This document shows, piece after piece, positions 19,301 through 62,975 of a stretch of 64,000 bases of DNA. The position numbers and the translations under genes were made by a program. The DNA lies in NCBI GenBank assembly GCA_949752745.1, contig OX457028.1:5117488-5181487 (forward strand), read 5' to 3'. Position 1 is the stretch's first letter; each line of letters begins with the position of its first letter. Under the pieces are notes generated by a model, which had not been told where the DNA came from, did not search any database, and saw nothing but the letters and a program-made list of their open reading frames with translations. This stretch comes from Protula sp. h YS-2021. Lineage: Eukaryota; Annelida; Polychaeta; Sabellida; Serpulidae.

Positions 19301-19398
19301 TTTCCGGAATAACCACTCTGTTTCCAATGAGCAGACACTCTTGTGAAATAGATAATTCTGATTCATGTGAATGATAAGGAGACAGATCTTCTTCAACT

Positions 19399-19950: not shown

Positions 19951-19959
19951 GGATCATAA

Positions 19960-24780: not shown

Positions 24781-25137
24781 ATGTCCGTGAGAAAAACAAC
24801 ATACAAATTTTGCATTTTAAAAATACTGAGAATAAAAATTAATTTTTAGTTGGCTCTCAAAATGAAATAAAGCTTTTTATATTGCAAATGATATTTGAGT
24901 TACACACTATTTTAACCGCAGCTGATTAAAAGCCTATCAATCACAGAATCAAGTTATGATTGGTGACATACTAGATTTTTTTGTTTTGAAACGGAATTTC
25001 GCACGACAATGAACAGTATCATTTTAAACAAATGGCGGCATAAACAAGCCAAAACGAGTTGTTTTTGTAGCATTCAGCTACAGTTGATTGTGATTATTGA
25101 GCGTTAGTCACGTTTTGTGAACAAAATTGTTCACAGA

Positions 25138-25150: not shown

Positions 25151-28100
25151 GTAAGATTTATGATGTTTCTTTTATTGGGGGTTATTTATTGAGTATGTTG
25201 CTGTTAATTTGCTTGTAGCTCCAGGTAATCCCATCCCTACTTAATTCTATAGTGAGTCCAGTGTATTCTGACTAACAAAAGTAAGTGGGTCATCTAAACT
25301 AAACCATTGAGCCGCAATCATATACTCTGTGTCTTGAAATTCAAATACGTTATATTTTTAAGAAGCTTGATATCTTACTTCCTTACAAACCATGTGCGTA
25401 ACGAATGGCAAAAAGACGGCGTCAAAAAAAAAAAAAAAAAAAAAAAAGAGCTGATTGCCATTTTGTTACTGGTAAAGGTGTAGTTTGGGGGACTTAATTT
25501 TTTCCTGCCATGTAAGGTTTTACATACGTAACATTTACAAAATAGTCCCCAGTGACCCTAGTCCCATCACCACTCCTGTACCCAGAGTAGGTGGGAGTCA
25601 CCTGGGACTGCTGACAATATAAATGAAAACAATATTAAATACGGATTTAAAAATAGTTGGCTACAGCTTAAAATTTACATAAAAATATTGAGCGATAATA
25701 CATAGTCATATAAATGATATATTTTATATTCAATATTTTCAGTAACATTAAAGAAAATTTGCAGTTATATAAAAACTAAATTACATTAAAAGAACATTTA
25801 TCATCAGTATGTAAGTATTTGTTTCATAAAAAATATTTATTTCCAAAAAAATGTAGCCACATTTTTGTGACCCTTGTTTATGTTCGATAAATTATTTAGA
25901 TATAGAACATCTCTATTGTAAGAAAAATGTTTTAAATATGCTATATAAACATTTTGTGGCGAAATCGTATTATATATAAACCAAATCAAAGTTCAGACTG
26001 CGCATGCTCAAACTAGAGTCCTGTCAGTTTTTATGGGAGTAAAAATTAAAAGATTGCAAAAGTTCAGTTTTCTCAAAAGTTTGACACACCGAGTCGTTAA
26101 ATTTCTATATGATGTAGAAAAAATGAATTTGTGACATTATTTAAAAGCGTTTATAGCTCAAATCCCGCGGTTTATTAAGCGCAAAGTGATTTTGCTGTTT
26201 TTCCCATTGACTTCTATATATTGACTGATTAGCTGTTTTTTCCTCTCCCCTCAGAGACAAAACTGTTTATAAAATGATTTTGGCTGCAAAAAAAATTGGG
26301 TCCGTTAAATTACACCTTTACCTCCTTTACCACAAGAGATATCAACTTCATTTTGCAGTTTGTGGTATATACCAGAGTATTGGGCTAAAAAAATTTCTGC
26401 TACGTTTCTATCACAATCTTGGGTTCTTGATTTCGGATCTGTTTCTCATAAAACGTTCCTTTTAAAAGGCAGCGTTTCTTTAAGTTATTAAATAGAAATA
26501 TTTCATGTAACGAAAATTGAAATTTCTGGATAAACCTTTTTCCGGGACAGTGGAAAATACTGACAGCAAAAAGAGAAAAAGTGGCTGAAATAGGAAAAAA
26601 TGGACTACCGAAATCTACCTAACACATCTGTTGTTAACTTTGTAATTTTGCCTCCAACTGAATGTGGTGAATTTGACATGCAACATACAAACACACACAC
26701 TGAGGTATTGATCAATAGTTCTTAATTAAAATAATATTTCAGGGATGATTTTACCCAATAAAATGGCTTGCAATCCTCACCAATTGAAAAAAAAAACATG
26801 CGACATTTTAAAAAATCACCTGCTCTTTCATTGGCTTATCGTGCGTGTGGATTACTCAGGGAATTTGTGGTTAGTTAATTGATATATTTATTTTCGATTA
26901 CAGCACCACAATGTCGTCACTGATATGTAGCGCTTTTATAATAATTGTTGTTTTATTTACCTCAAAACTGGTTGTGTGGTGGATAAATGATATCCCTGAG
27001 TAAGTTGTCCGAAGTGATGCTAATCTGTAAGAGAGTGGCATAATAAAATAAAACTTATGTTCACATAACTTAATTTTATTTGAAAATGCAATTCTTAGAA
27101 GAGCCGTTCATTTTGAATGTTGTTATCACGCACCTTAGTTCTGCTCGCTTTCTGTGATATTGTAAAAGTAGAAATTGTCGATTTGGCCGAGAATGGTGAA
27201 AGTCTTAATATTCTCTGGCTTTCAGGTTTTATTTTCACGGGAATTTATTTTTTTACCTTGCTAAAAAGAAAAGTACACCAGCCGCACAGTTTATCGTCAT
27301 TATAACACAAATTCACAGAATTGTGCCTCAAATAAATCAATAAATTTGGCACAAAAAATCTTTTTTTTTTTGTTTTTTTTTTTTTACACTTTCATTTCAG
27401 TGTGGCAGCACCCCTAACGGTGCAGTGGTGCTTGTGTAACTTGGTTAACGTTGTTTATTTTCCAGTGTGGCAGCACCCCTATGTGAATACACGTAAGCAT
27501 TTATGCCATTTTGGTACTAACGGTGTAGTGGTGCTCACGTAACTTGGTTTATTTTCCAGTGTGGCAGCATCCCTATGTGAACACATGTAAGCATTTATGC
27601 CATTTTGGTACTAACGGTGTAGTGGTGCTCACGTAACTTGGTTTATTTTTCAGTGTGGCAGCACCCCTGTGTGAACACATGTAAGCATTTATGCCATTTT
27701 GGTACTAACGGTGTAGTGGTGCTCACGTAACTTGGTTTATTTTCCAGTGTGGCAGCATCCCTATGTGAACACATGTAAGCATTTATGCCATTTTGGTACT
27801 AACGGTGTAGTGGTGCTCACGTAACTTGGTTTATTTTTCAGTGTGGCAGCACCCCTGTGTGAACACATGTAAGCATTTATGCCATTTTGGTACTAACGGT
27901 GTAGTGGTGCTCACGTAACTTGGTTTATTTTCCAGTGTGGCAGCATCCCTATGTGAACACATGTAAGCATTTATGCCATTTTGGTACTAACGGTGTAGTG
28001 GTGCTCACGTAACTTGGTTTATTTTTCAGTGTGGCAGCACCCCTGTGTGAACACATGTAAGCATTTATGCCATTTTGGTACTAACGGTGTAGTGGTGCTC

Positions 28101-31100
28101 ACGTAACTTGGTTTATTTTCCAGTGTGGCAGCATCCCTATGTGAATACACGTAAGCATTTATGCCATTTTGGTACTAACGGTGTAGTGGTGCTCACGTAA
28201 CTTGGTTTATTTTCCAGTGTGGCAGCACCCCTATGTGAATACATTCAAGCACTTCCAAATTCACGAATGGAAGAAAGCGTCAAAGGAGGGAGAAGTCGTC
28301 TCCTGTATGGTAATCAATCGTTTTCCGCTCTCCGCTTGGCTCCGCCCCCACCTTGGCCGCCTGGCTCCCCACCGTACCCTTGCCCCCCCCCCTGTCTGCC
28401 CCCCCCCCCAGCCCGTCCATCTCCTCCCCCCGGCCCCTGTCCGCCTGCTGCCGCCCCCCTCCCCCGGCCCCTCTCCCTCTAGCCCCCTCTCCGCCTGGCT
28501 GTCCACGTACTCCAGTCCGTCTACCTCCTTCCCCCCGGCCCCTGTCCGCCTGCTGCTCCCTCCCCCTGGGCTCCTGTGCCTCTAGCTGCCTCCTAGCCTC
28601 GGCCTGCCCCTGAACCCTGTCCGCCTGGCTTTTCCTTCTCCCCCCCCCGATTCTGTCCGGCTATCTATCCCTCACCCTCCCTCCCTCCCCCCCCCCCCCC
28701 CATGTTCCCAACTTGCTATACAATGTGTTTTTTGGTCATCTACTTCCTCTGTGTGTCGAATACGACCTGTCTTTTACGGACTCCAACCTCTTCCTTTTTT
28801 TCTCTGCGCAGTCCCGTAAGAGCTGGGATTCCCAGTTTAATTCAGGCTGTGAATTTTAGTCTGCCGCTGTTCATGTCTAAAATATTGACGTAACTCTCTG
28901 CTGTAGCTAGTAAATAGTGTCACGACAATGAAGCGATAGATTTGTGCATTTATCTTGTGTAAGTCGCACGCAAGATTTTTAATTTCCAAATTTTTTGTTT
29001 GTAAACAAGTCCAGTCGGTCACGTGAAATTTAAAGTGCTCGGTACCTAGAAAAAAGGTTCCATGTAAACAATAAGTTAAACATGTTATTTAAAAAGTTGG
29101 ACAAGTAACTTCGCGCCTGAGATTGTTTTAGGTGAGTGTTAGATGCTAATGTCCTACATTGTTTGTAGCATTATTCACTTAACTTTTATGAACTGAACTA
29201 ATTCCAGGACCGCACGTGTAAATGCACAGTGTACAAGATCAGCGGCTCGATACCAGCGGGGAACTATATACAGCTACCAAAGACCACATCACAGTCACTT
29301 GGCCTGACGGGTCGCTTTATGTACTTACTCTTCAAAGCAGTACCTTCCAAGTACTTTGTGGTACACATAGATGTCGCCACTGACGATGGACTTATCGTGA
29401 GAATCTCGTTTTCGAATCTGTTCAAGGAGTTCAAGGGCACGTCGACGTGGCTTCAGTTTCCGTTCGTGTGTCACGCGGCTAAGGGAAGCATTAGTGATAA
29501 AACGGGCGCGACTAGTCGCGGTAAGCACAACATTAGTGATAAAACGGGTGCGGCTAGTCGCGATAAGCACAGCATTAGTGATAAAACGGGTGCGGCTAGT
29601 CGCGGTAAGCACAGCATTAGTGATAAAACGGGTGCGACTAGTCGCGGCAAGCACAACATTAGTGATAAAACGGGTGCGGCTAGTCGCGGTAAGCACAACA
29701 TTAGCGATAAAACGAGCTCGACTACTCGCGGTAAGCACAGCATTAGCGATAAAACGGGTGCGACTAGTCGCGGTAAGCACAACATTAGTGATAAAACGGG
29801 CGCGACTAGTCGCGGTAAGCACAACATTAGTGATAAAACGGGCGCGACTAGTCGCGGTAAGCACAACAGTGATAAAACGGGTGCGACTAGTCGCGGTAAG
29901 CACATCATTAGCGATAAAACGGGTGCGGCTAGTCACGGTAAGCACAGCATTAGTGATAAAACGAGCGTGGCTAGTCGCGGTAAGCACAGCATTAGTGATA
30001 AAACGGGTGCGGCTAGTCGTGGTAAGCACAGTATTATTGATAAAACGGGTGCGGCTAGTCACGGTAAGCTCAAATTACCGATAAAACGGGTGCGGCTAGT
30101 CACGGTAAGCACAGAATTAGCGAGAAAACGGGTGCGGCTAGTCGCGGTAAGCACAGCATTAGAGATAAAACGGGTGCGGCTAGTCACGGTAAGCACAGCA
30201 TTAGTGATAAAACGAGCGTGGCTAGTCGCGGTAAGCACAGCATTAGTGATAAAACGGGTGCGGCTAGTCGTGGTAAGCACAGTATTATTGATAAAACGGG
30301 TGCGGCTAGTCACGGTAAGCTCAAATTACCGATAAAACGGGTGCGGCTAGTCACGGTAAGCACAGAATTAGCGAGAAAACAGGTGCGGCTAGTCGCGGTA
30401 AGCACAGCATTAGTGATAAAACGGGCGCGACTAGTCACGGTAAACACAACTTTAGCGATAAAACGGGTGCGACTAGTCGCGGTAAGCACAGCATAAGTGA
30501 TAAAACGGGTGCGGCTAGTCAAGGTAAGTACAGCATTAGTGATAAAACGGGTGCGGCTACTCACTTTAAGCACAGCATTAGCGATAAAACGGGCGCAGCT
30601 AGTCGCGGTAAGCACAGCATTTGTGATAAAACGGGTGCGGCTAGTCAAGGTAAGTACAGCATTAGTGATAAAACGGATGCGGCTAGTCACAGTAAGCACA
30701 GTATTAGCAAAAAACGGTGCGGCTAGTCGCGGTAAGCATAACATTATCGACAAAACAGGCGCGGCTAGTCACGGTAAGCACGGTATTAGCAAAAAAAAAC
30801 GTGCGCGGCTAGCCGCGGTAAGCACAGCATTAGCGAAGAAAACCGGCGGGACTAGGCGCAAAGTTTACACACGTGTTTTGCGTGCGATATCGAATAGACA
30901 TTTGGTATTTCTCCTGAGGTTACTGGGTAAGTGTAGATTGTAGTTAAAACTTATTTAAAGTGGGGCCTAAAAAACTCATGGAAATATGTTCCGTATTAGC
31001 AGTATCGCGAGGAAAATTAAGCCGAGTTTTCTTCAAAGATATAGAATAATGACGTTTTGAAAAGTCGTTACCAGGGCTTTACATTAACTACTGCCCGACC

Positions 31101-34100
31101 TGCCGGGGCAGGTAAAATCTCTCGATTGGACTGGCAGCTACAGGGGCTATCCTCCCCGACCGAGGCTGGCTTCCTGGTGGGGAATGTGGGTGGAAGGATG
31201 TTAGGGGGAGGGGAGGGGAAGGGAGAGATGACGAAGGTTAAAAGAAAACCCACTGATATGGTCACGTTTTCGAAAACATGAAGAATGAAAGCTGTTATTC
31301 AAGCATAATTTAATTTTAAATGATTTCAGTTTCGGGCTACTTATAGGTGATTGTAAATTGCGGGGTGGGGGGTGGGGGGTGAGGTCAGAGTTCGAAATGG
31401 GTGAGGGGTGGGGCTTGACGGTCGGGCAGGCAGATCTCTTAACTTAAAAAAAAATATTATTAACGTGATAATTATTTCCGCACCAGATCACGCTGGTCCC
31501 GCGCCGCTGAACACGCGCTGGACAGCCCTCTGCCTCGATTTCCGCGCCATCCTCTCCCTCTACCTGAACCGGCACTACGCGTACATCAAGAGCGTGCGGC
31601 TATGTGCCAACATGGTGGTGAAGAACATCTTCACGAGCGACACGGAATACGAACCAGGTATCGTGTGTGACTTCCTCATGCCCCCCACCCCGCCCCCCCC
31701 CCCCACCCCACCCCTCGCCCAGTCCCAGTTTTAGCACCGGAGTAGGGTTATAGGGGTTTGGGTGTTGTCCATCTTCCCGTCCATCGTCGGCTGTTATTCC
31801 CACTCTGACAGTCCGACTACTCCTATATTTTGGTATGCAGATGACCTATCATATTGGGTAGAGGCACGCTATTTGTATTTTTAACCTTGACCCAATTTCA
31901 AGGTCACAGTGGCGACCATCTTGGAATCCGATGGCTTATTATTTAATGACATTACATATACTGACCACACAGTAGAATAACTGGTGTTTATGGGCAACTG
32001 AGGCTCAAAACTATAGTAGGGCAGAGAAATGACTGTAATCAGCGCGTCAGGAAGGCATGCAATTTATTATCTGTTACAGCAATACATAGCTTTCGTATTC
32101 GAGATTTTTTTGCGGTGTTTGGGTTGGGGGGGGGGCGAAATTATTTCTCATTTTGACATGTCTTTTATTCTTTTCTTCATTTATGTGTTATAGTTATTGT
32201 TATTATTTTAGCAGTAGACAAAGCTAAGTACTTTCTATCAATTTTTGCGTAGTTTGGTATTCGTTGTTGGTATTTATTTTTCCTGCAGGTCTGTCATTTG
32301 ACAAAGTGAAGAAAGCAGGCATGAAGCTGGACGGTGTCGCCCCCATGCCCCGCGAGATGGCGTTTCCGCTCTCCAAGACCCAAGTCTGGCATGACCTCTA
32401 TGATCACATTAGGTGAGAACATTTGTTTTGAAATTTGAAATTCAAAAACTTTAATATCATCCGGATTGTGTAGGGTTAGGGTTGTTTCTGTCTAAGAGAA
32501 AAGAAAAAAGAGAGAACACAATTTGAAAGAAAAAATGTTTATACGGAAATATGTCAGAAATAACTACACAAATATACAGGAAAAAAAAATTTAAAAAAAT
32601 GGAATAGTAAAAAATTATAAACAGAAACGTGTCAGTTATTTTTAAAAGTAATACGATCTTCATGAAATTATTGAAAATCAGTCTTATTTTCACCATAATA
32701 ATATGAGTTGAATTATAATTGCACAGTGAACAAATTGGGGGCCTGAAATGCTTTTGTATTTATTCCATTTATTATTTTATTATTTTTTGTTTAGATTCCC
32801 CAGTGAAACAACGAAGAAGCCATTTGATTCTGTGCAGTACACAAAGACGGACAGTCAGCCAGAGCTCAGAAAAACAAGTACGTGTGTGCATTGAAATTCG
32901 AACTCAAAAGTTATGGCTAAAAAATCAGTGTTATTCTAATATTAAGCGTGAAGGAGCCGGTTTGGTGTTCCTACAAAAAAAGCACAAGCCCTTTGACATT
33001 AGAATTTGGCTTTTCGTTTTTTAGCCCAGCTTACGGTACACGTAAGCTGGGGTATTCCTATCGGTTTGCGGCTGGCGTCCGTTAGTTAGTTAGTTAGTTA
33101 GTTAGTTCGCTGTAAACTTTGTTTCAAAATGCATCTCCTCCTACAATTTTGATTCGATGTCATTTATTTTTGGTGTGAGGCATCCCTAAGGGGTCGTGCA
33201 TACGGCTTGTGCTTTTCTAGTCGATCGGGATATTTTTGAATTTTTGGCGAATTTTTAAAGAAAAAAATTAAAAATGTATCTCCTCCTACATTTTTGACCC
33301 GATGTCATTTATTTTTGGTATGAGGCACCCCTAAAGGGTCGTGCATACGGCTTGTGCTTTTTTAGTCGATCGGACAATTTTTGTATTTTTGGGGATTTTT
33401 TTAAGCAAAAATTTTGAAAAAAATGCATCTACTCCTACAATTTTGATTCGATGTCATTTATTTTTGGTGTGAGGATTGCCTAAGCGGTCGTGCATACGGC
33501 TTGTGCTTTTTTACTCGATCGGGTTATTTTTGAATTTTTGGGGATTTTTTAAAGAAATTTTAAAATGTATCTCCTCTTACATTTCTGACCCGATGTCATT
33601 TATTTTTGGTATGAGGCACCCCTAAAGGGTCGTGCATACGGCTTATGCTTTTTTAGTTTGTATTATTGGGGAATTTTTTAAGCAAAAATTTCGAAAATAA
33701 TTCAAAATGCATCTACCCCTACAATTTTGATTCGATGTCATCTATTCTTGGTGTGAGTGCATACGGCTTGTGCTTTTTAGTCGATCGGGCAATTTTTTTT
33801 TTTTTTTTAGGCATCCCTAAGGGGTTGAGAATACGACTTGCGCTTTTTAGTCGATCCGACAATTTCTGTATATTTTGGGAATTTTTGAAGAAAAACTTCA
33901 AAATGCATTTCCTCCTACAGTTTTTATCCGATTTCATTTATTTTTGCTATGAGGCATCCTTAGGTAGGTCTCGCATACGGCTTGTGCTATTTGACTCGAC
34001 TTGGGAATTTTTGATTTCGGGGGGAATTTTTGATGAAAATACCTCAAAATGCATTTTCTCCTGCAGTTTTGATCAAACATCATTTATTTTGTGGCTGAGG

Positions 34101-39195: not shown

Positions 39196-39272
<77 letters not shown>

Positions 39273-54200: not shown

Positions 54201-57200
54201 CCTGATGGAGTTCACTGATTGCTGCTTCGAGGCCGGCTACGAGGCCACGAAAGACCCCCTCGACAGGCTTGTGTGAGTGCCCCCCCTCCCACCCTGTCAC
54301 CCCTACCTCCCTCACAATCTGCCCCCTTTCACACTACCCCCTAACTCTCCCTCACCCCCCCCCCCGCCCTTACACACCCCCTCACTCCTAACCCCCCCCT
54401 CCGACCACCCCTTCACACGCCACCATCCCCCTCCCAAACTGCTCACTCTCGGTTGCCATGCAGTCATTACATGGGAGAGGCTTAATGTAACCCTGAACTT
54501 AAGAATTTAAATAAGGAAGATTTTAAACTGTTTTATAGTTTTAATTTTGAAATGTTAAAAAAAGAATACGTCGTTAATGCAAAGAAGCTACTTTCGGTAA
54601 AACTCTGTTTTCAGTTTTTTTCAAATAGTAATAATAATAAGGATAAAAATAATTAAAATAATATAAAATATCAATAATGGTAATGATAATAAACAGTTGT
54701 GATTACGCAAAGAAACAAAACTGTTGGCAGTTACACGTGCAGTCGCGCTGGTCACGTGTTCGAGATTGACTACAGGAAAGTGGCCATCAGTCACGTGCGC
54801 AGGCTCATGCCCACACAGCCCAAAGCGAAAGAAAAGCAGCACTTCAATTCAGGTGAGATCTGAGTGACTATGCTCTCATGCCCACGCATCCCAAAGTGAA
54901 AGAAAAGCAGCACTTCCATTCAGGTGAGATCTGAGTGACCATGTGCTTATCTCACCTTCTTTCTTAGAACGGTGTTATTATATAAGTTGCAAAAATCCTG
55001 TCTCTACAAACCAGTTGATAATTTTTTTTCGTAACTTTCCCGAATTCCGGAAATTTTGAGGTAAGAAGGGTCTTCCATGAAATATCGAAACTTTAAAGAG
55101 GGGTTTGGGAGGGGGCAGGCTGTCTCAGTATACTGGCCCATAAGTTGTAAGCTTTATCTCGTACTGTAATATTATATATATTGATAAATAGTTTTAAAGT
55201 TTTAAAAAATGGCTATTTTAGGCTTTTGTCCTCAGGAAGCAAGCCTCAGATCTTCCTTACCACATCATTTCTCCGTCATATTTTCTTTTTCTTTTTTTTT
55301 TTCGATCGCTCCAGAATTATGTCTGGACAACACACACCTTAGTCAGGGTTCGCGCTGGGTTCTCAGGGAAGTGAGCCAAAAAGGGAAAGTGTGACTCAGT
55401 TGGGTCCAGAAAAACTCGGTGGGTTCCGAAAAAGTGAGTCATTTCGTAAAAAAATGCCCAAAAAGTGGACAAAAACCCCGCCAACGCGAACCCTGATTAG
55501 GGATAGCTTTTTTCCTCCCAAGCAAGTAAATTTATATCACGTAAAAGAGTACCTTTTATTTATTTTTATTTATTTATTTATTTTTCGCTTGGTACAACAG
55601 GAGGCGGCATATCTATAAATAGCATGACGGTGAACGAGGCGTTTTGCGCCACCGGCTCGGACGACGGCTACCTGAGGCTGTGGCCCCTGGATTTCAAGCA
55701 CGTGTATCTGGAGGCGGAGCACGAGGGTCCCGTGACCGCCGTGGATATCTCCGGGGACGGCATGAAAATCCTCGCCGGAACGTGTACGGTACGTGTACGG
55801 AATGTGTACGGTACGTGTACGGTATAGGTACTGTGGTATACGGTACGTGTATGGAACGTGTACGGTACGTGTATGGACGTGTACAATACGTGTACGGAAC
55901 GTGTCCGGTACGTGTACGATACGTGTGTGGACGTGTACGATACGTGTACGGAACGTGTCCGGTACGTGTACGGTACGTGTGTGGACGTGTACGATACGTG
56001 TACGGAAAGTGTCCGGTGGGGCATCCGGTGGGGCATCCGTCGTCTGTATGTGCGTACGTAGCCTTTACTGAAAACGTTTCTTTACCCACAGTTTTGATCG
56101 GAATGCTTGAACCAAAGTGTCCACCAATCAGGGAAATCAGGGAAAAATTAGGGTAGTTTTTTTTTTTTCAAGATAAAAAATCATGGAAAAAAAAGGGAAT
56201 TTGTTTTTTTGTCAATCAGGGATAATCAAGGATTAGTGATGCTGAACTAAACTGTTATTAATCATTTTATTTTATTCTCTATCTGAATTAATTTTGTATA
56301 ATGCATTTCAGTGGCTATTGGTTACGTCTAGTGTTTCATAAGTATGATTTACATGTAGCAGATAGGACGTGTACTACTTCTAAATATACTGAGCATTACA
56401 CACTGCATATATATAGTGTGTATAATAACAACAGAAAATCAGGAAAATCAGGGAAAAATCAGGGAATTTGGAAAAGACTTAAAGCCGGACACCATGATTT
56501 TGTATGGCTATTCGTTTTATAGTTCCCTCTTGCCATAAATACTACTTGTTAATGTGAGACATTAATTTCGTTTGTGGATTATCCTAGGGTCTTTCCCCTA
56601 TCTAGCCGAATTCAGCTTATTTTAAAAAAACTTTTTTTTGGCAATCCTCCAAAAATTGACATAATGTCTGCTTTGGAAAAGTTTTGCAAAATAGATCTTC
56701 TGAATTTAGTCAGATTTTATTATTTTATGAGAGGTGCAAGGTTTTTGTAGATTCTGAAGATTCTCCACCGAATGGGAAAAATTTCGGGCTTTGAAAAATT
56801 GTTATTAACCTGTCCTGTAATGTCTGTTACATCTTGGGGATCCTTTTGCATGTAGCTTCTATGGGTAGTATCAAGGATCGGTATTGTAAATGGGTTAGGT
56901 TGGCCCACGGAAAATGAACCAAATAGACTTAAAAAATTTCAGCTCTTGATTGACTGTTGATGGCCGTGTTTAACTGATGGGGGGGGGGGGGGGTGTCTGT
57001 GGGGAATATGTGGACTATGTACACTGCTCTAGTTTGTAATGTCTGCTGATTCCTGAGGATCGTTTTGATACTGGATTTACCTAATCTCAGCTGGTCACAA
57101 TGTCCCTGGACATTCTAGTTTATGTGCCATGAGGATCTCCCCTTTACGCACGTCCTGTTGACGTTTGCTGGGAGCGTTGTGTGTGTGTTGCCAGGGCAAC

Positions 57201-57595
57201 GTGGGCATCCTGGACATCGCGACGCGCGGTTACACGACCGTCATGCGCTCGCACACGAGCCGCATCCTGTCGCTCAGTCTGGATCCGCTGCGACGTCACA
57301 TGGCCACCGTGTCGGACGACCACACGATCCGGGTGTGGGACCTGGATACCATGCAGCAGGTGCCCGCTCAGCCTGCTTCAAATAAACAAAAAAGATAACA
57401 ACTAAAGAAACATCTGATTCCAGATGAAAACAGGAGATTAGTAAAGATTATGTCAGAGTGTTAATTTAGTCTGTTACCTGAACATCCTAATTCAATGTTA
57501 AGTTTTCTGTTAATTTACTGAAAGTTGGAATATAATAATAATAATAATAATAATAACAATAATAATAATAATAATTACTATTATTATTCCAACTT

Positions 57596-57672
<77 letters not shown>

Positions 57673-59264
57673 GCTGTTATTGTTATTGTTTATTTGTTTA
57701 TCGACTTGCCTGCTTGTCGGCGCGGGCAGCTGTACGACTTTAGCGCGCCTAAGGAGTGCCCGTTAGCCATCCACTTCCACCCGCGCCAGCAGATGTTCGC
57801 GTGCGGCTTTGAGTCGGGCTCCGTGCGCGTCTTTAACGTGGCCAACACGAGTATGCTGGCCGAACACAAGTACGTTCTGGCTGTTTTCTACAAGCACCCC
57901 GCCGTTAAGTGTGCTAGTTAAAGGACATATCCAAAAATAGACCAAAATCACCTGTGGTTAAGTGTGCTAGTTGAAGGACATATGCAAAAATAGACCAAAA
58001 TCACGTGCGGTTGAGCGTCCTAGTTAAAGGACATATCCAAAAATAGACCAAAATCACGTGCGGTTGAGCGTGCTAGTTGAAGGACATATCCAAAAAATAG
58101 ACCGAAATCACCTGCGGTTAAATGTGCTAGTTGAAGGACATATCCAGAAATAGACCAAATCTAAACCGAAAAAAATAATAGTAAATAATGATAGATAAAA
58201 ATAGAATAAAAATAGAAAAACAAGATTTTTTTTTTTTACCAGAAGAAATAATATACATTCCGAAATGTTATTTCAGGGGATAAATTGAAGAGAGAGAGAG
58301 ATCGATCGCTGTGCCATTTGCTGCGGGATTGATATGGTGGTGGTTGTTTTCTTGCAGACAGCACCGCGGCAAGGTGACGGGCCTGTGCTACTCGCCGCAC
58401 GGCGACTACCTCTACAGCTCCGGCTCGCTGGGTACTCTAGTACTCTACGACTGTACTGACGACAAGTACCGGCTTGTGCGGGTACTTGCCAACACGGTGG
58501 CGCGCAATGAACGGTACGGGCCGGACGCACTGACCGTCAGCCCGGACGGACGCTTCTTGGCCTTTGTGGGGCCGACGGAGTTCACGGTCAGCGTGGTGGA
58601 CGCGAAGTGCCTGGACGAGGTATGTCTGCTACGTCACTGATGACGTGTGTGTACGACGTCACTGGGCGAGATATGTGTGCTACGCCACTGATGACGTGTG
58701 TGTACGACGTCACTGGACGAGGTATGTGTGCTACGTCACTGATGACGTGTGTGTACTACGTCACTGGGCGCGATATGTGTGCTACGTCACTGATGACGTG
58801 TGTGTACGACGTCACTGGACGAGGTGTGTGTACTACGTCACTGGACGAGGGGTGTGTACTACGTCACTGGACGAGGTATGTATGCTACGTCACTGGGCGA
58901 GGTATGTGTGCTGCGTCATTGATGACGTGTGTGTACTACGTCACTGGGCGAGGTATGTGTGCTACGTCATTGGTGACGTGTGTGTACTTCGTCACTGGAC
59001 GAGGTACGTGTGCTACGTCACTGATGACGTGTGTGTGCTACGTCACTGGGCGAGATATGTGTGGTACGTCACTGATGACGTGTGTGTACTACGTCACTGG
59101 GCGAGATATTCAGCGTGCTACGTCACTGAAGGGTACCATCTCCTTGTCGGTACTGAAACAATGTAACCCGCTAAGAGTCCGCCGTGTGGTTGAACAAATC
59201 GTATAACTCACCAACGGAAATTTTTTTTGACAGACCCAACTCATGTTTATCTTATTATGTCCTG

Positions 59265-59296
<32 letters not shown>

Positions 59297-62200
59297 CATT
59301 ATTGTTATTATTATTATTGTTGTTGTTGTTGTTGTTTCTGAAATTTGTAAAATCTTCCTCACAAGCCATTGTCACGTGACAGGTGATGCGGATCGACGTG
59401 ACGTCACTGAGCGCGGATACGTCACGCACGTGCCTGGACACAGCCGCGCGCGTGCGGTACACGCCGGCGTCCGTCAAGCAGCTTCTAGTCACCACAGCCA
59501 GCAACAAACTCCTCAAATTCGACGCTCGCAGCGGCAAGATACTCACCGAGGTGCGCGCCGCCATTTTGTTTCTTCTCTCTGTGACGTCATGGAGCGCAGT
59601 TGCTCCCTGTTTAATTCATGAAAAACACATTTCGTATGTTATGCATATCAATTTTTATCTGTTTCTATTTAAAATTTGAGAATGATGAATTAAAACAATG
59701 GCATATGAAAAAGAAAAAAAAAAGCAAAAACAAAAATAAAACAAAAAAAAATGCTTGGGAAAAATAACACCTTTCTTGGCTCTTCTCGGTCCCCCGCGTA
59801 CTGTCTAAGTGACAGAACGGCTGATCCGGCTATGTTCCGCCCAGTTTTAATCATGCTGCCTGGAAAGTGCGGGCGGTGCTTTGGCATTGGGTCGCTTTGT
59901 GATCATTTAGTGATCATTTTGTGATCATTTTGTTCATTTTGTGATCATTTTGTCCATTTTGTGATCATTTTGTGATCATTTTGTCGCGGACCTTGGTGGA
60001 CCTTTTCTTTTTGTATTGTATTTTTTTTTCAATTAATTATTATTATTTTATTTTTTTGCAGATAGAGCATATTCACAGAAATGGCTGCACGGCCCTGGAC
60101 GTGTCACGTGACGGCCGTTACCTGGCAACGAGCGGGGACAAGGTCATCAAAATATGGGACTACCATATGCGCCTCGATATGAATTTCCAGGTGAGTCACA
60201 CCCTCAAGTCATTTTCTTTATATGTGAAATGTTAGCAGAGGCAAAAAAATAAACAAATAAAAATAATTAAATGACTAAATGAATTCGAGTGGAAACAATA
60301 ACAATCGTTAAGACATAAAGAATAATTTTGTGGTGTTCGCATGCTTGTTAGCCCCCAATCGGGGCATCAGACCCCGGAGTAGGGGGGGGGGGCGGGTATG
60401 GGTTTGTGTGTTGTCCCTCCATGGTCGGGTGGTGACCGTGCTGTCTACGATGGCTTGTGTAATCGTGGGCACCGTGCTGGCTGTGGTCAAGGGGTGGGGG
60501 GGGGGGGGGCGGAGGATGACCGTGCTCTCGGCTGGCACCGTGCTGGCTCTGGGGGGAGGGGGGCGGCTATACTCTCTACGATGGCTTGAGGGATCGTGGG
60601 CACCGTGCTGGCTGTGGTGGCGGGGGGGGGGGGGGGATGGGAGGGGACTGTGCTGCCTGCGATGGTTGGAATGATCGTGGGCCCCGTATTCATGTTATTA
60701 CAGGTCTTCATAGGGCACGCGGACTCCGCGTCCCGCGTCATATTTGTCGTGGCACCACCGTGCTAGCTCTGGGAGGGGGGAGGGGTGTAGTGGCGGGGGG
60801 GGGGGGGGGGGAGGGGGACTGTATTCTCTACGATGATCGTGGGCCCGTATGCATGTTATTACAGGTCTTCATCGGGCACGCGGAATCCGTGTCCCGTGTC
60901 ATATTTGCACCTGACGACCTCAGCTTCATCAGCACTGGCGAGGCCATATTTATCTGGGATTTTCTCGCTCATAAGGCTGATCGACCCAAACTAGAGTGAG
61001 TTCTGTGTTTTATGAGGAATAAGTAACTTATTTAATGCTTAGAAAGGCGTACAGAACATACTGCTTACAATTCTAACACAAACGACATTATTTCCACTCA
61101 AGTTGTGATTTTTTGTGTATTCTTTCAGATTCTTTACATTTTATGGTAAAAGGCGAAAGGTTTGAGAAATTTTCTTTTCCTTGGGGAAAATATCGTTTAC
61201 TTCTTTATTTATCAAATTATTTTTTTTCTGTTAGTGTTCCTTTTTTTAAATTTTGTGAAGGGGTGTGGCAGTGATGCATTTAAACTGATACTTGAAGTAA
61301 GTTATTATTTTTAGAAACATAATATTTGAGAAAGAGTAAACTTTGTTGTTCGCTTACAGGGGAAGAACCACGGCTATGAGTTACTACACAGGAGAAGGTA
61401 AGTCTTTGCATTCGCGGGAGAAGGTAAGTCTTTGCATTCGCAGGAGAAGGTAAGTCTGTGCCTTCGCAGGACGAGGTAAGTCTGTGCCTTCACAGGAGAA
61501 GGTAAGTCTGTGCCTTCGCAGGAGAAGGTAAGTCTGTGCATTCGCCGGAGAAGGTAAGTCTTTGCATTCGTAGGAGAAGGTAAGTCTGTACCTTCACAGG
61601 AGAAGGTAAGTCTGTGCCTTCGCAGGAGAAGGTAAGTCTTTGCATTCGCAGGAGAAGGTAAGTCTTTGCATTCGTAGGAGAAGGTAAGTCTGTACCTTCA
61701 CAGGAGAAGGTAAGTCTGTGCCTTCATGGGAGAAGGTAAGTCTGTGCCTTCACAGGAGAAGGTAAGTCTGTGCCTTCATGGGAGAAGGTAAGTCTGTGCC
61801 TTCGCAGGAGAAGGTAAGTCTGTGCCTTCGCAGGAGAAGGTAAGTCTGTGCCTTCGCAGAAGGAAAGTCTGTGCCTTCGCAGGAGAAGGTAAGTCTGTGC
61901 CTTCGCAGGAGAAGGTAAGTCTGTGCCTTCGCAGGAGAAGGTAAGTCTGTGCCTTCGCAGGAGAAGGTAAGTCTGTGCCTTCGCAGGACTCGGTAAGTCT
62001 GTACCTTCGCAGGAGAAGGTAAGTCTGTACCTTCGCAGGAGAAGGTAAGTCTGTACCTTCGCAGGAGAAGGTAAGTCTGTACCTTCAGAGGAGAAGGTAA
62101 GTCTGTACCTTCGCAGGAGAAGGTAAGTCTGTACCTTCGCAGGAGAAGGTAAGTCTGTACCTTCAGAGGAGAAGGCAAGTCTGTACCTTCACAGGAGAAG

Positions 62201-62975
62201 GTAAGTCTATGTCTTCGCTTGAATAATTCCCATGATGTGAAAAAAAAGAACCTTTGTGTCGTAAGAAGGTTTCACGTCTTTCCTTGAGAAGGTCCCGGTA
62301 TTGACTGCGAGCGGTACGGCTGAAGGTGAGGCTAACCTCTAGGCAGTCCAGGATATTGGTCTGTGGCATGGCATAACCTGTAACTCGAAACCGAAACTAC
62401 AAGTTTTAAATATGTAGTTTCAAGACAATAACATTAAGTCTCGGAATCTCACGATTCAGTCACGGAGTCTCCCGACTCGATCACGGAGTCTCCCGATTCG
62501 GTCACGGAGTCTCCCGATTCATCATGTAGTCTCTCGATTCGATCACGGAGTCTCCCGATTCAGTCAGGGAGTCTCTCGATTCGGTCACGGAGTCTCCCAA
62601 TTCAGTCATGGAGTCTCCTGATTCAGTTACTGAGTCATCCAATTCATTATGTAAATTATGTAAAATTTAGTGGTAACAGCGCATTTGTGTTTTATTTGCA
62701 GCTGAGATTATGACGTAAGCATTTTAGGTAATGCAGTACCTCATCCCCTCTTCCCCGCCTGCCTTTTTCAGAAGAGCTGTACGAGCCTTACAGCGCCCCT
62801 GGCGGCCGTCAGAGCGGCGACGATCGGGAGATGTGTAACGGAGACGGACTGCCCGACACGCCCAGGAAGAGCGTGCCCAGGCCACTGAGCTACGCGCCGA
62901 GCGCGCCCAACCCACGCCAGCATGATCCCGGCGTGTCCATAGCGGATATCAGCAACATCGAGAGAGTCACAAACG
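25138..62975 (+). CDS. WDR90: WDR90/POC16 orthologue, 24 exons, 3' end beyond window
   Basis: The exons join with consistent splice phases into about 1,107 codons. Residues ~5-265 form a CFAP20/DUF667-type domain (WQHPYVNTFKHFQIHEWKK, NYIQLPKTTSQSLGLTGRF, ISFSNLFKEF). A linker of about 130 residues follows, then WD40 blades from ~residue 393 (GHTDK, VRVWDF, VRLWRV, LRLWPLDF, IRVWDLDT, IKIWDY, IFIWDF). Domain order and many stretches match the animal WDR90 family; the human protein is about 1,750 residues, so roughly the last third lies outside. WDR90/POC16 is known as a centriole-wall protein, using its CFAP20-like domain on microtubules and helping recruit the inner scaffold. The introns are loaded with splice-junction-derived tandem repeats. 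No promoter was identified. Orthology rests on remembered family sequence, not on a search. Confidence 0.9.
25151..27398. other. intron 1, unique part
   Basis: A/T-rich, with an A tract at about 25,423-25,447 and T tracts near 27,361-27,386. No other gene was recognised. Small open frames at 26,274 and 27,117 lack domains. Confidence 0.5.
27399..28217 (+). repeat. 94-bp tandem array copying the exon 2 acceptor
   Basis: Copies of cagtgtggcagca start at 27,463, 27,557, 27,651, 27,745, 27,839, 27,933, 28,027, 28,121 and 28,215 (the last is the real exon), each exactly 94 bp apart. A shortened copy lies at 27,399. Each unit carries a T-rich tract ending in cag, then 27 nt that could encode WQHPYVNT, then gtaagc. 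In the real exon the gtaagc has become tcaagc. Copies 2-7 alternate between two variants (catccctatg and cacccctgtg), so the recent unit of expansion was 188 bp. Confidence 0.9.
28218..28309 (+). CDS. WDR90: WDR90 exon 2
   Basis: Acceptor tttattttccag, donor gtaatc. Begins in phase 1 and ends in phase 0. Encodes WQHPYVNTFKHFQIHEWKK and on to VVSCM, the start of the CFAP20-like domain. It is the terminal copy of the 94-bp array. Confidence 0.88.
28330..28705. repeat. pyrimidine-rich (C/CT) low-complexity tract in intron 2
   Basis: Dense runs of C with ct interruptions and repeated gtccgcctg words. It gives proline-rich open frames in several frames, none a credible gene. Confidence 0.8.
29208..29520 (+). 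CDS. WDR90: WDR90 exon 3
   Basis: Acceptor attccag, donor gtaagc at 29,521. Encodes the core of the CFAP20-like domain: CTVYKISGSIPAGNYIQLPK, SLGLTGRF, YFVVHIDVATDDGLIVRISF, NLFKEF and WLQFPFV. Ends in phase 1, matching exon 4. The last ~14 codons (SISDKTGATSRG) are already the first unit of the 42-bp array. Later copies of the donor keep the same phase, so the true 3' end is ambiguous by multiples of 42 nt. Confidence 0.85.
29484..30860 (+). repeat. 42-bp tandem array spanning the exon 3 donor
   Basis: About 32 units of gcattagtgataaaacgggt + gcggctagtcgcggtaagca + ca. Most units keep cgcg|gtaagc, a good donor. Because 42 is a multiple of 3, the exon frame stays open through the first ~14 units. 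A 252-bp block (six units) is itself duplicated (29,947-30,198 and 30,199-30,450), identifiable by the variants acgagcgtgg, gtattattg and gctcaaattaccg. Confidence 0.9.
30861..31486. other. rest of intron 3
   Basis: Includes a G-rich stretch at 31,186-31,420. No gene or known repeat. Confidence 0.5.
31487..31657 (+). CDS. WDR90: WDR90 exon 4
   Basis: Acceptor caccag, donor gtatcg, phase 1 to phase 1. Encodes LNTRWTALCLDFRAILSLYL and IKSVRLCANMVVKNIFTSDT, the later part of the CFAP20-like domain, closely resembling the matching region of animal WDR90. Confidence 0.9.
31725..31940 (+). repeat. dispersed repeat family C, copy 1
   Basis: Shares gtgttgtcc, cggctgt, gacctatcatattgg and gaccatctt with a copy at 38,955-39,170. 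A third, partial copy lies at 60,345-60,440 (ggtttgtgtgttgtcc). Non-coding. Confidence 0.5.
32289..32412 (+). CDS. WDR90: WDR90 exon 5
   Basis: Acceptor tcctgcag, donor gtgaga. Begins in phase 1 and ends in phase 2. Encodes MPREMAFPLSKTQVWHDLYD, a conserved stretch near the end of the CFAP20-like region. Confidence 0.9.
32795..32877 (+). CDS. WDR90: WDR90 exon 6
   Basis: Acceptor tttgtttag, donor gtacgt. Begins in phase 2 and ends in phase 1. Encodes FPSETTKKPFDSVQYTKTDS, the exit of the N-terminal domain. The 5.9-kb intron that follows is nearly filled by element A. Confidence 0.85.
33120..34330 (+). repeat. ~147-bp tandem array in element A
   Basis: About eight units carrying aaaatgcatctcctcctaca, gatgtcatttatttttggt, gcatacggcttgtgctttt and tagtcgatcgg. 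The rightmost units are more diverged. Confidence 0.85.
34331..38435 (+). repeat. 51-bp tandem array in element A (~80 units)
   Basis: Unit: caagttaaataaacatgcgc + actggtccgaaatgcgaacc + gcgcatcaacg. Since 51 is divisible by 3, translated units give repetitive open frames on both strands; these are not genes. A higher-order block of about 765 bp (15 units) repeats: the variant tgggcgctcgtcag occurs at 36,881, 37,647 and 38,262, the last interval being three units shorter. Confidence 0.9.
38755..38867 (+). CDS. WDR90: WDR90 exon 7
   Basis: Acceptor ctactttcag, donor gtgagt. Begins in phase 1 and ends in phase 0. Encodes SSKEPRRVTSRVVDVSGKPV and VSVIDAVTSNQL, a linker between the N-terminal domain and the WD40 region. 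It starts only about 56 bp after the end of element A. Less conserved, so the call rests mainly on frame and splice sites. Confidence 0.75.
38955..39170 (+). repeat. dispersed repeat family C, copy 2
   Basis: See 31,725-31,940. Shared words are gtgttgtccgtccgtccatt, gacctatcatactggatagg and cacaatggccgcaatctt. Confidence 0.5.
39199..39270. repeat. (TTA)n microsatellite
   Basis: About 24 units in intron 7, just upstream of the exon 8 acceptor. Confidence 0.9.
39322..39522 (+). CDS. WDR90: WDR90 exon 8
   Basis: Acceptor ttttttgcag, donor gtaaag, phase 0 to 0 (67 codons). Encodes a basic then serine/histidine-rich linker (PFKRRDVVKELPRVGVDAEG ..). Probably disordered. Confidence 0.78.
39811..39925 (+). 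repeat. 23-bp minisatellite before exon 9
   Basis: Five units of tgaccattttacgtgcatgt + tca, ending about 10 bp before the exon 9 acceptor. The unit does not include exon sequence. Confidence 0.85.
39936..40004 (+). CDS. WDR90: WDR90 exon 9
   Basis: Acceptor ttattccag, donor gtaagc, phase 0 to 0. Encodes PDPILKLRRIVGFGGNSTRD, the conserved entry into the WD40 region of WDR90 proteins. Confidence 0.9.
40240..40350 (+). CDS. WDR90: WDR90 exon 10
   Basis: Acceptor tttgttgaag, donor gtacga, 37 codons in phase 0. Encodes TMVVYPCHAVVVAM and QAFFIGHTDK, the first WD40 blade. The following minisatellite starts at the donor itself. Confidence 0.88.
40351..41200 (+). repeat. 37-bp tandem array starting at the exon 10 donor
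   Basis: The donor segment gtacgagtcatggccactct + atgccgcc is followed by about 22 units of gtacgccatgtaccagccat + ggccactatatgccgcc. Each unit restarts with gtacg, like the donor. The unit length is 1 mod 3 and stop-free in all plus frames, so three overlapping frames of about 350-385 codons result. These are a by-product of the repeat, not proteins. Confidence 0.9.
41664..41809 (+). CDS. WDR90: WDR90 exon 11
   Basis: Acceptor tatgctttgcag, donor gtgagt. Begins in phase 0 and ends in phase 2. Encodes ISCIALNGSSTLVASGQGG and VVRVWDFNSRQCLAMFKTH, a WD40 blade with its WD dipeptide. Its last ~35 nt and donor seed the 40-bp array. Confidence 0.9.
41774..43950 (+). repeat. 40-bp tandem array spanning the exon 11 donor (~54 units)
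   Basis: Unit: gttcacacccactccctgca + ttctctcaggttagtatcga. The first unit is the real exon end plus gtgagtatcga. Nearly every copy keeps ctcag|gttagt or ctcag|gtgagt, so dozens of decoy donors follow the true one. Subfamilies (actcccagca, gtacactcct, agatcaatat) recur in order, showing block duplications. Confidence 0.92.
44090..44160. repeat. G-rich tract
   Basis: Runs of G in intron 11, adjoining the tRNA-like head at 44,160. Confidence 0.7.
44160..44820 (+). repeat. tRNA-like SINE head interrupted by an inverted-repeat element
   Basis: A-box-like ggttagctcatttggttaga lies at 44,162-44,181, and B-box-like gggctcgaatcc starts at 44,790. Removing 44,209-44,789 brings them to normal tRNA spacing. 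Confidence 0.55.
44209..44789. mobile_element. inverted-repeat (MITE-like) element, 581 bp
   Basis: Ends ggtgtgatgaaacgttttga (left) and, complemented, ggtgtaaggaaacgttttga (right) continue as long imperfect inverted repeats (gacccccaaa, aaatcgacc, gtctgtttgtt). The centre is A/T-rich and non-coding. A clear target duplication was not found. Confidence 0.6.
44860..44945 (-). repeat. second tRNA-like SINE head, minus strand
   Basis: On the minus strand, tggcatagctcaggcaatcg (A box) is followed, after a C-rich insert, by ggattcgaatcaca (B box). It faces the head at 44,160. Confidence 0.4.
45100..45210. repeat. fragment with a SINE-tail-like motif
   Basis: Contains catggcgtaagaggcgacta, a phrase I associate with dispersed repeats of molluscan genomes. 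This is from memory and weak. Confidence 0.3.
45336..45722 (+). repeat. 33-bp minisatellite
   Basis: About 11 units of agattgcagcatttacccaa + ttcatggccaatc. The unit is a multiple of 3, so it is open in frames on both strands (IAAFTQFMANE on plus). Intronic and between two mobile elements; not a gene. Confidence 0.85.
45950..48120 (+). repeat. ~147-bp tandem array in element B with 445-bp higher-order repeat
   Basis: About 14 units. The phrase aatgtatctccttctacatt recurs near 46,094, 46,539 and 46,985, about 445 bp apart, so blocks of three units were duplicated. Confidence 0.85.
48130..50745 (+). repeat. 51-bp tandem array in element B
   Basis: Same unit as in element A, about 43 copies in two blocks (48,130-49,320 and 49,710-50,745). 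Confidence 0.88.
49347..49710. mobile_element. small insertion with TTAA-flanked inverted ends
   Basis: Left ttaa|acacttgacaa at 49,347. The right end, complemented, reads ttaa|cacttaacaagcc (to 49,710). About 360 bp, non-coding apart from a 62-codon frame without a known domain. It splits the 51-bp array. Flanking ttaa on both sides suggests a piggyBac-like target, but the ends are not the typical ccc. Confidence 0.4.
51450..51507 (+). CDS. WDR90: WDR90 exon 12
   Basis: Acceptor cccgttgcag, donor gtaagt. Begins in phase 2 and ends in phase 0. Encodes MSHSGGVLCGVGKDNHGKN, matching the family's GVGKD(H/N)HG stretch. Its 3' end seeds the array that follows. Confidence 0.88.
51490..52350 (+). 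repeat. 58-60-bp tandem array spanning the exon 12 donor
   Basis: About 15 units beginning gacaaccacggctaaaacgt + gagtaaccctgacac and ending in ..tataacagtctca. Starts include 51,490, 51,550, 51,608, 51,666, 51,725, 51,785, 51,842 and 51,900. Each of the first units carries both an acag and a gtgagt. Units after about 51,950 decay and gain long C runs. Confidence 0.88.
52415..53085. mobile_element. possible inverted-repeat element
   Basis: Left ccgatccgaaaaaccctccc is mirrored by gggagggtttttggacaagt at about 53,066. The inner words agctgaaacggatcc and ggatccgctttcagct are also inverted. Many acacgtgtacacg-type palindromes lie between. Non-coding. Confidence 0.4.
53184..53302 (+). CDS. WDR90: WDR90 exon 13
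   Basis: Acceptor tttttcaag, donor gtgggt. Begins in phase 0 and ends in phase 2. Encodes MVVIWNTRNV, then VNVVAKAHTDVDIVRMRIAF and FDDTR, the end of one WD40 blade and the start of the next. Confidence 0.9.
53370..53700 (+). repeat. dispersed repeat family B, copy 1
   Basis: Shares atgtagcttctatggg, cggtattgtaaatggg, cagctcttgattga and gatggccg.gtttaactgat with 56,800-57,030, same orientation. Confidence 0.6.
53775..53870 (+). repeat. 15-bp minisatellite
   Basis: About six units of gtgatagaggacgtt in intron 13. Confidence 0.75.
54111..54272 (+). CDS. WDR90: WDR90 exon 14
   Basis: Acceptor gcgtgttgcag, donor gtgagt. Begins in phase 2 and ends in phase 2. Encodes MVSCGRDNVRLWRVKDGQLR and VNLGEYHLMEFTDCCFEAGY, with the LW of a WD40 blade and the conserved LGEYH..FTD stretch. 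Confidence 0.92.
54731..54852 (+). CDS. WDR90: WDR90 exon 15
   Basis: Acceptor ctgttggcag, donor gtgaga. Begins in phase 2 and ends in phase 1. Encodes YTCSRAGHVFEIDYRKVAIS and HVRRLMPTQP, then a lysine-rich stretch (KAKEKQ). Its last ~49 nt plus the donor are duplicated immediately downstream. Confidence 0.9.
54804..54945 (+). repeat. 71-bp tandem duplication of the exon 15 donor region
   Basis: ctcatgcccac..ccaaag.gaaagaaaagcagcactt, then c.attcag|gtgagatctg, starts at 54,804 and again at 54,875. Two copies only, about 95% alike by eye. The second copy has no acceptor of its own. Confidence 0.9.
55601..55788 (+). CDS. WDR90: WDR90 exon 16
   Basis: Acceptor ttggtacaacag, donor gtacgt. Begins in phase 1 and ends in phase 0. 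Encodes GSDDGYLRLWPLDFKHVYLE and AEHEGPVTAVDISGDGMKIL, two WD40 strand sets with the hallmark LRLWPLDF of WDR90. Confidence 0.93.
55781..56025 (+). repeat. tandem array of the exon 16 donor (gtacg-rich)
   Basis: The exon end cgtgtacg|gtacgt is reiterated as 11-12-bp units (gtacgtgtacgg). These merge into a 54-bp higher-order unit (gtgtggacgtgtacgatacg ..) repeated about three times. Confidence 0.85.
56800..57030 (+). repeat. dispersed repeat family B, copy 2
   Basis: See 53,370-53,700. Ends in a G run at 56,980-56,993. Confidence 0.6.
57195..57359 (+). CDS. WDR90: WDR90 exon 17
   Basis: Acceptor gtgttgccag, donor gtgccc (weak), 55 codons in phase 0. Encodes GNVGILDIATRGYTTVMRSH, then ATVSDDHTIRVWDLDTMQQ, a full WD40 blade. 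Confidence 0.92.
57521..57671. repeat. (AAT)n/(ATT)n microsatellite with hairpin arms
   Basis: gaaagttggaata precedes (ata)n, and its complement ccaactttc follows the first (att) run at about 57,588-57,597. A further (att)n run extends to 57,671. Confidence 0.85.
57730..57869 (+). CDS. WDR90: WDR90 exon 18
   Basis: Acceptor gcgcgggcag, donor gtacgt. Begins in phase 0 and ends in phase 2. Encodes LYDFSAPKECPLAIHFHPRQ and FACGFESGSVRVFNVANTSM, a WD40 blade. Confidence 0.92.
57905..58160 (+). repeat. 53-bp tandem array in intron 18
   Basis: About 4.5 units of agtgtgctagttgaaggaca + tatccaaaaatagaccaaaa + tcacgtgcggtta. It begins about 35 bp after the donor, and the unit lacks exon sequence. 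Confidence 0.85.
58358..58619 (+). CDS. WDR90: WDR90 exon 19
   Basis: Acceptor ttttcttgcag, donor gtatgt. Begins in phase 2 and ends in phase 0. Largest WD40 exon: GKVTGLCYSPHGDYLYSSGS, LVLYD, then LTVSPDGRFLAFVGPTEFTV and ending CLDE. Confidence 0.93.
58611..59115 (+). repeat. 51-bp tandem array spanning the exon 19 donor
   Basis: About 10 units. ctggacgag|gtatgt (exon end plus donor) recurs as ctgggcgagatatg at 58,662 and ctggacgaggtatgtgtg at 58,713, with the variants continuing to 59,115. Each unit has two related halves around tacgtcactg. Confidence 0.88.
59266..59335. repeat. (ATT)n/(GTT)n microsatellite
   Basis: Imperfect trinucleotide run in intron 19. Confidence 0.85.
59383..59550 (+). 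CDS. WDR90: WDR90 exon 20
   Basis: Acceptor tcacgtgacag, donor gtgcgc, 56 codons in phase 0. Encodes VMRIDVTSLSADTSRTCLDT and QLLVTTASNKLLKFDARSGK, a WD40 blade with the TASNKLLKFD motif. Confidence 0.9.
59900..59985 (+). repeat. ~11-bp minisatellite
   Basis: gtgatcatttt and gttcatttt units upstream of the exon 21 acceptor. Confidence 0.75.
60062..60190 (+). CDS. WDR90: WDR90 exon 21
   Basis: Acceptor tttttttgcag, donor gtgagt, 43 codons in phase 0. Encodes CTALDVSRDGRYLATSGDKV and IKIWDY, a WD40 blade. Confidence 0.92.
60440..60864 (+). repeat. imperfect G-rich repeats with a duplicated exon 22 acceptor
   Basis: Three to four units share ctacgatggctt, gatcgtgggcaccgtgctgg and G runs. The last two include gttattacag|gtcttcat.gggcacgcgga, at 60,704 and again as the real exon start at 60,865, 161 bp apart. 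The first copy loses similarity after about 45 nt (tcatatttg). Confidence 0.8.
60865..60995 (+). CDS. WDR90: WDR90 exon 22
   Basis: Acceptor atgttattacag, donor gtgagt. Begins in phase 0 and ends in phase 2. Encodes VFIGHAESVSRVIFAPDDLS and AIFIWDFLAH, closing this set of WD40 blades. Confidence 0.92.
61360..61397 (+). CDS. WDR90: WDR90 exon 23
   Basis: 38 nt. Acceptor tcgcttacag, donor gtaagt. Begins in phase 2 and ends in phase 1. Encodes GRTTAMSYYTGE. Small and of low complexity, but both splice sites and the phases fit its neighbours. Confidence 0.75.
61391..62205 (+). repeat. 26-bp tandem array spanning the exon 23 donor (~31 units)
   Basis: Unit: ggagaaggtaagtctgtgcc + ttcgca. The first copy is the real exon end (gagaag|gtaagt). 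Almost every unit keeps the consensus donor ag|gtaagt, and also a pyrimidine-plus-cag directly before gagaag. Confidence 0.93.
62440..62645 (+). repeat. 21-bp minisatellite
   Basis: About 9-10 units of cacggagtctcccgattcgg + t in intron 23. Confidence 0.85.
62772..62975 (+). CDS. WDR90: WDR90 exon 24 (last in window)
   Basis: Acceptor gcctttttcag, donor gtacgg. Begins in phase 1 and ends in phase 1. Encodes an acidic/proline-rich linker (EELYEPYSAPGGRQSGDDRE .. DTPRKSVPRPLSYAPSAPNP .. VSIADISNIERV) between WD40 modules. The next exon must lie beyond 64,000 or was not recognised. Confidence 0.82.

Follow-up and report, generated by a model that had tools for sequence, protein, structure and literature searches.

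Tandem arrays at ten exon edges of a lophotrochozoan WDR90 gene

A WDR90 gene with arrays at ten exon edges

The 64,000-nucleotide stretch of contig OX457028.1 from Protula sp. h YS-2021 (hereafter the window) contains exons 2–24 of a WDR90 gene, in which ten exon edges carry tandem arrays; nine of these arrays copy the splice site itself, whereas the one at exon 10 (E10; other exons are abbreviated likewise) merely abuts it (Table 1). Joined together, exons 2–24 form a single, stop-free open frame of 1102 amino acids (aa), and the 22 complete introns are GT-AG throughout; exon 1 was not found in the window. Pfam, run on a 1098-aa version of the protein in which the E15 acceptor was placed 12 nucleotides (nt) off, recovered a CFA20 domain at the N-terminus and the second propeller of WDR90/POC16 (6.8e-146). 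A protein search with a capped number of candidates, 7,993 of which were scored, gave at least 762 proteins at E ≤ 0.001; among the matches listed, i.e., the best 120 of the 762, the top homolog is 66% identical and covers 100% of the query. Solved structures matching WDR90 residues 1–493 were general WD40 and ciliary proteins only, and neither a tRNA scan nor an Rfam scan gave any match.

In a WDR90 tree of 18 rows, the window protein falls inside a lophotrochozoan group (support 100/99), where it joins two rows (98/97) to the exclusion of the annelid, nemerteans and molluscs sampled; a quick tree of 35 rows is in agreement. A clade uniting the window protein with Branchiostoma is rejected on the 18-row tree (approximately unbiased test, p-AU 0.00166), and B. 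floridae WDR90, 55% identical, ranks 23rd in the protein search. No brachiopod, phoronid or bryozoan appears by name among the best 120 of the 762 matches.

The 46 junctions of exons 2–24 (23 donors and 23 acceptors) were scanned with probes made from the junctions themselves, comprising 18 bases at donors (9 exonic and 9 intronic, at most 4 mismatches, scanned against the following intron) and 24 bases at acceptors (12 + 12, at most 5 mismatches). The donor probe recurs at seven of the 23 donors, with 31 matches at E3, 53 at E11, 10 at E12, 1 at E15, 16 at E16, 10 at E19 and 30 at E23, and the acceptor probe recurs at two of the 23 acceptors (E2, 9 matches; E22, 1 match). At the other 16 donors, including E10, the probe has no match in the following intron, and at the other 21 acceptors it has none either. 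Since the E10 array begins on the GT, it escapes the donor probe; it was seen by Tandem Repeats Finder (TRF) and by self-BLAST. TRF, the junction probes and self-BLAST concur on the arrays at donors E3, E11, E12, E15, E16, E19 and E23 and at acceptor E2, whereas the extra E22 acceptor copy was detected by the probes alone, being in neither the TRF list nor the filtered self-BLAST output. Between them, these searches recovered all ten arrays of the original prediction at the positions it had given.

The arrays reach into the exon by 32 nt at E3, 27 at E11, 49 at E15, 13 at E16, 9 at E19, 7 at E23, 26 at E2 and 43 at E22. At E12, an 18-nt exon end is repeated as read by eye; the computed reach there is just 4 nt because its first spacing measures 59 instead of 58. 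The single additional copy at E22 aligns without gaps over 21 + 43 nt.

Could the assembler have made or inflated these arrays? Repeat arrays are error-prone, and one of the amphioxus repeats known as “mirages” was misassembled in the draft genome (PMC3087553). However, the mean pairwise identity of copies is 0.80–0.93 in seven arrays, unlike duplicated reads, and the two E15 copies differ by ~7%; copy numbers are provisional. We regard an assembly artefact as extremely unlikely.

Table 1. Positions of the WDR90 gene and of its ten exon-edge arrays in the window (bp, base pairs).
Feature	Unit	Copies	Position	Strand	Remarks
WDR90 gene, exons 2–24 and introns between			28218..62975	+	Continues beyond the window; based on open frame, Pfam and homologs
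E2 acceptor array	94 bp	9 extra acceptor copies (first degraded)	27401..28254	+	Exon start 28218, in the last copy, agrees with the protein
E3 donor array	42 bp	~32	29474..30859	+	True donor after 29520
E10 array	37 bp	23	40351..41202	+	Begins on donor GT at 40351; no exonic part
E11 donor array	40 bp	54	41783..43954	+	True donor after 41809
E12 donor array	57–60 bp	~13	51490..52313	+	True donor after 51507; decays toward 3' end
E15 donor duplication	71 bp	2	54804..54943	+	True donor after 54852
E16 donor array	11 bp		55776..56017	+	True donor after 55788
E19 donor array	51 bp	~10	58603..59129	+	True donor after 58619
E22 acceptor duplication	161 bp (spacing)		60683..60907	+	Upstream copy 60704, true exon start 60865; outer limits are the ungapped reach
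E23 donor array	26 bp	~32	61384..62218	+	True donor after 61397

Placement of the arrays along the gene

Self-BLAST over 27.0–64.0 kilobases (kb) yielded 19 clusters, of which the five lying in two copies of a transposon-like element were removed before counting. Eight of the 14 clusters left span a junction, E10 abuts one and five lie off junctions; E22 is not in this count because the self-BLAST detector missed it. Against the eight spanning clusters observed, 1.85 are expected with uniform seeds (P 9.2e-5), 2.33 with seeds matched for guanine-cytosine (GC) content (P 3.8e-4) and 1.73 when clusters are placed within their own introns (P 2.5e-5; this null uses the E15 acceptor before its correction and an assumed intron 1 start of 26000). 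GC matching accounts for only part of the junction excess. The junction arrays are also the longer ones, with 7,815 bp in nine arrays against 1,247 bp in the five off-junction arrays (Mann–Whitney P 0.021). Collectively, these results confirm that the arrays in WDR90 are real and, as had been claimed from the sequence at the outset, non-randomly placed in this one gene. Donor and acceptor arrays split 8 to 2, which is not significant (one-sided binomial 0.055) and would suit a first-come donor rule.

Two of the off-junction arrays lie near exons: the one at 39787–39923 ends 12 nt upstream of exon 9, and the one at 57901–58159 begins ~32 nt past the exon 18 donor. The transposon-like element, 5.2–5.7 kb long, is present as two copies in WDR90 introns 6 and 11 (33016–38698 and 45840–50992), which are 82–84% identical at their ends, contain arrays of ~145 bp and 51 bp each and have a palindrome at the left end; it probably represents a non-autonomous transposon that harbors minisatellites of its own. 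TRF found four arrays (period ≥10, at least 50 bp) in the first 27 kb, the largest of 301 bp, and since no gene was identified there, this part is unfit as a control. Its minus strand carries, at 18213–22088 and 23536–24816, broken Ty3/gypsy-type pieces (integrase, RNase H and reverse transcriptase, with a zinc knuckle slightly under the cut-off; best matches of one fragment 43–44% identical over the query) and a separate reverse transcriptase frame, probably like that of a long interspersed nuclear element (LINE).

Splice-site choice and the state of the inner copies

At each array, our gene model takes the exon-proximal copy as the putative splice site, and protein homology fits this choice. 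Comparison of nine array junctions with eight homologs showed a gap within 6 residues in only 7 of 72 checks, each gap being of 1–3 residues and none of unit length, so that the exon-proximal site fits at nine of the ten edges. The E2 acceptor was outside this check; its last copy gives WQHPYVN, near the start of several homologs. The true donor of E11 has a score of 10.7, which exceeds that of 51 of the 53 later donors (median 7.2).

When translation is continued beyond the true donor, six of the eight donor arrays run into a stop within 1–53 nt, and this stop precedes the first inner donor in E11, E12, E15 and E19; the frame stays open for 812 nt in E3 and for 1,008 nt in E10. The E3 array, whose unit length keeps the frame, was considered as coding sequence and rejected: changes, numbering 29, 45 and 52 at codon positions 1, 2 and 3, show no concentration on the third position, and spacings of 39, 40, 41 and 44 occur.

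Might the inner copies be kept for a role in splicing, be it as decoys, as kinetic traps or as spare splice sites? GT is retained in 125 of the 153 later donor copies, the donor columns of E23 rank 3/26 in conservation (1 being the most conserved), and the E2 and E23 units hold acceptor-like sites in the range of real ones, all of which would agree with such a role. In the other arrays, however, the donor window ranks 21/42 (E3), 39/40 (E11), 18/59 (E12), 11/11 (E16) and 46/51 (E19), i.e., at or close to the bottom in E11, E16 and E19, and so uneven a pattern is compatible with drift and argues against any function shared by the arrays, E23 alone deviating. Moreover, seven of nine units have no acceptor-like site equal to the weakest of 21 real acceptors; only E2, which contains its own acceptor, and E23 do. 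A retained splicing role is thus very unlikely in our estimation, and the shortage of adequate acceptor-like sites also led us to reject micro-exons or ratchet sites as a general idea.

Two details of individual units were seen in passing. The inner E2 copies (27480–28160) carry, by eye, a GTAAGC 27 nt past the acceptor that is missing in the true exon 2, which could let a copy of this kind act as a 27-nt micro-exon. The exonic part of the E11 unit closes with a pyrimidine-rich CAG immediately ahead of the GT, as at a recursive splice point, and this arrangement is present 54 times; this array heads the longest intron (9,640 nt), and the acceptor score of its unit is under the real range.

Origin of the arrays and their relation to amphioxus mirages

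BLAST of eight units against each other (E16 and E22 were not included) gave only chance-level matches between different units; the units are hence unrelated and their births independent, in line with the original prediction. Copies are most similar at a distance of two units in E2 and of six units in E3, and blocks of rare variants reappear at a spacing of ~251 bp in E3 and of 280 bp in E11, a pattern that fits duplication of multi-unit blocks. Such growth may have proceeded by unequal exchange or by replication slippage, which sequence alone does not separate. Fold z-scores lie between -2.5 (E3) and +1.8 for nine junction units, which share no trend, and between -1.8 and +0.5 for five off-junction units; hairpin-driven slippage as a general cause is accordingly unsupported. 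By inspection only, array donors resemble the others in nearby GC content, intron phase and donor sequence, and the last two likewise suggest no general cause.

Tandem duplication of segments that carry splice signals is a known route of intron gain (PMC4974935), and it has also been proposed for the amphioxus mirages (PMC3087553). The array-bearing introns of WDR90 might have been born by tandem duplication of coding AG/GT segments, the repeats being remains of intron birth. Yet in WDR90 the repeat does not supply both intron ends: all eight donor arrays stop 253–7,495 nt short of the acceptor, and the acceptors of these introns, as judged by the probe, never repeat into the intron. With the arrays subtracted, these introns are of ordinary size and resemble other introns. 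Because no donor array reaches its acceptor, this explanation fails, and we hold it to be highly improbable.

The WDR90 structure is that of the amphioxus mirage, which the original prediction did not mention, and not a new kind; what is new is the host branch and the density. In amphioxus globin and Adh3 genes, mirages are boundary-spanning repeats found at either boundary, with units of 10–160 bp (PMC3087553), more precisely 10–72 bp in Adh3 and 150–160 bp in the globins BflGb6 and BflGb9 (PMC3087553, PMC3902484); a later paper adds PGBD5 as a mirage gene and cites troponin C (PMC3902484). As in mirages, the units at seven donors and two acceptors of WDR90 span the exon-intron boundary, and many of the intronic copies bear splice signals. 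Unlike the amphioxus cases, the host lies within Lophotrochozoa, ten edges are involved in one gene and copies number up to 54. Mirage genes splice regularly by reverse transcription PCR and show length and somatic instability (PMC3087553), whereas the WDR90 arrays are known from one assembled sequence. All mirages met in these sources are from cephalochordates, and the WDR90 host is not one; we count this as the known range of mirages, not as part of their structural definition.

Human genes in segmental duplications likewise carry minisatellites, in the form of internal tandem repeats where exons meet introns (PMC2812944). With ~30 bp units repeated ~4 times, these create new introns and alternatively spliced forms among recent paralogs, whereas in WDR90 the homolog-fitting exon borders are unchanged. 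Intronic minisatellites of C. elegans are described in PMC4039745, the part covered of which makes no mention of junction-spanning arrays. Among the papers listed by searches of the open-licence literature, none was seen to describe minisatellites across splice junctions in any lophotrochozoan; one of these listings covered 15 of 31 papers, a Conus intron paper (PMC3862624) was judged by its listing alone, and subscription papers were mostly outside the search.

We favor, with a probability of roughly 0.6, the reading that mirage-type arrays were born across exon edges of WDR90, that the exon-joined copy was kept and that the inner copies drift. Short tandem duplications would have arisen independently some ten times, each across or at an exon edge, and then been enlarged by further duplication, partly of multi-unit blocks. 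The exon-joined copy, first in donor arrays and last in acceptor arrays, would be held by selection on protein and splicing, and the remaining copies, being removed with the intron, would be free to drift. The spliceosome would be expected to choose the exon-proximal site despite up to 53 similar sites after it; the actual splicing and the neutrality of the inner copies are presumed here. Birth or growth of arrays would be favored at junctions.

Several points weigh against this reading. WDR90 is a single gene picked post hoc for its pattern, so the P values are optimistic; when E15 and E16 are dropped, six of 12 clusters span a junction and P becomes 2.2e-3 (uniform) or 5.6e-3 (GC-matched); and, of the 14 clusters, five are located away from junctions. 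Later donors score at least as high as the true one in 26 of 31 cases at E3 and 27 of 31 at E23, so the true donor is not generally the stronger one, accurate splicing would have to depend on position, and some use of inner sites is conceivable; the conserved donor columns of E23 are also explicable by function. Finally, pure tolerance predicts most arrays inside introns and so leaves the junction bias unexplained. The original prediction had suggested, as one possible cause, selection that tolerates arrays keeping a usable site at their edge; this holds insofar as the exon-proximal copy fits homologs and donor columns lack consistent constraint, and falls short in that tolerance by itself gives no reason to expect more arrays at junctions than inside introns.

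The post hoc choice of one gene, the GC-matched expectation of 2.33, the weaker P of the smaller set and the off-junction arrays would all suit a lucky draw, in which duplications arise anywhere without junction bias, are tolerated outside exon interiors and were noticed in this gene for their pattern. Set against it, eight of 14 spanning clusters exceed the 1.7–2.3 expected under all three nulls, and E10 and E22 come in addition to these eight; we judge a lucky draw to be unlikely.

Birth of mirage-type arrays across exon edges, as we read WDR90, extends a little-known amphioxus oddity to another major animal branch, and a density of 10 of 46 junctions in one gene makes its cause testable. 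Such arrays are natural tests of how the spliceosome chooses one donor among up to 54 and of exon edges as hot spots of tandem duplication. Tentatively, and with doubt prevailing, we suggest that exon edges may be minisatellite nurseries across animals: junction arrays would recur in Lophotrochozoa as in cephalochordates, because edge-seeded duplications would form or grow more readily and keep their exon-anchored copy intact, and donor arrays would outnumber acceptor arrays, as they do here, because a first-come choice of donor would pass over the copies that follow, whereas additional acceptors upstream would compete with the true one.
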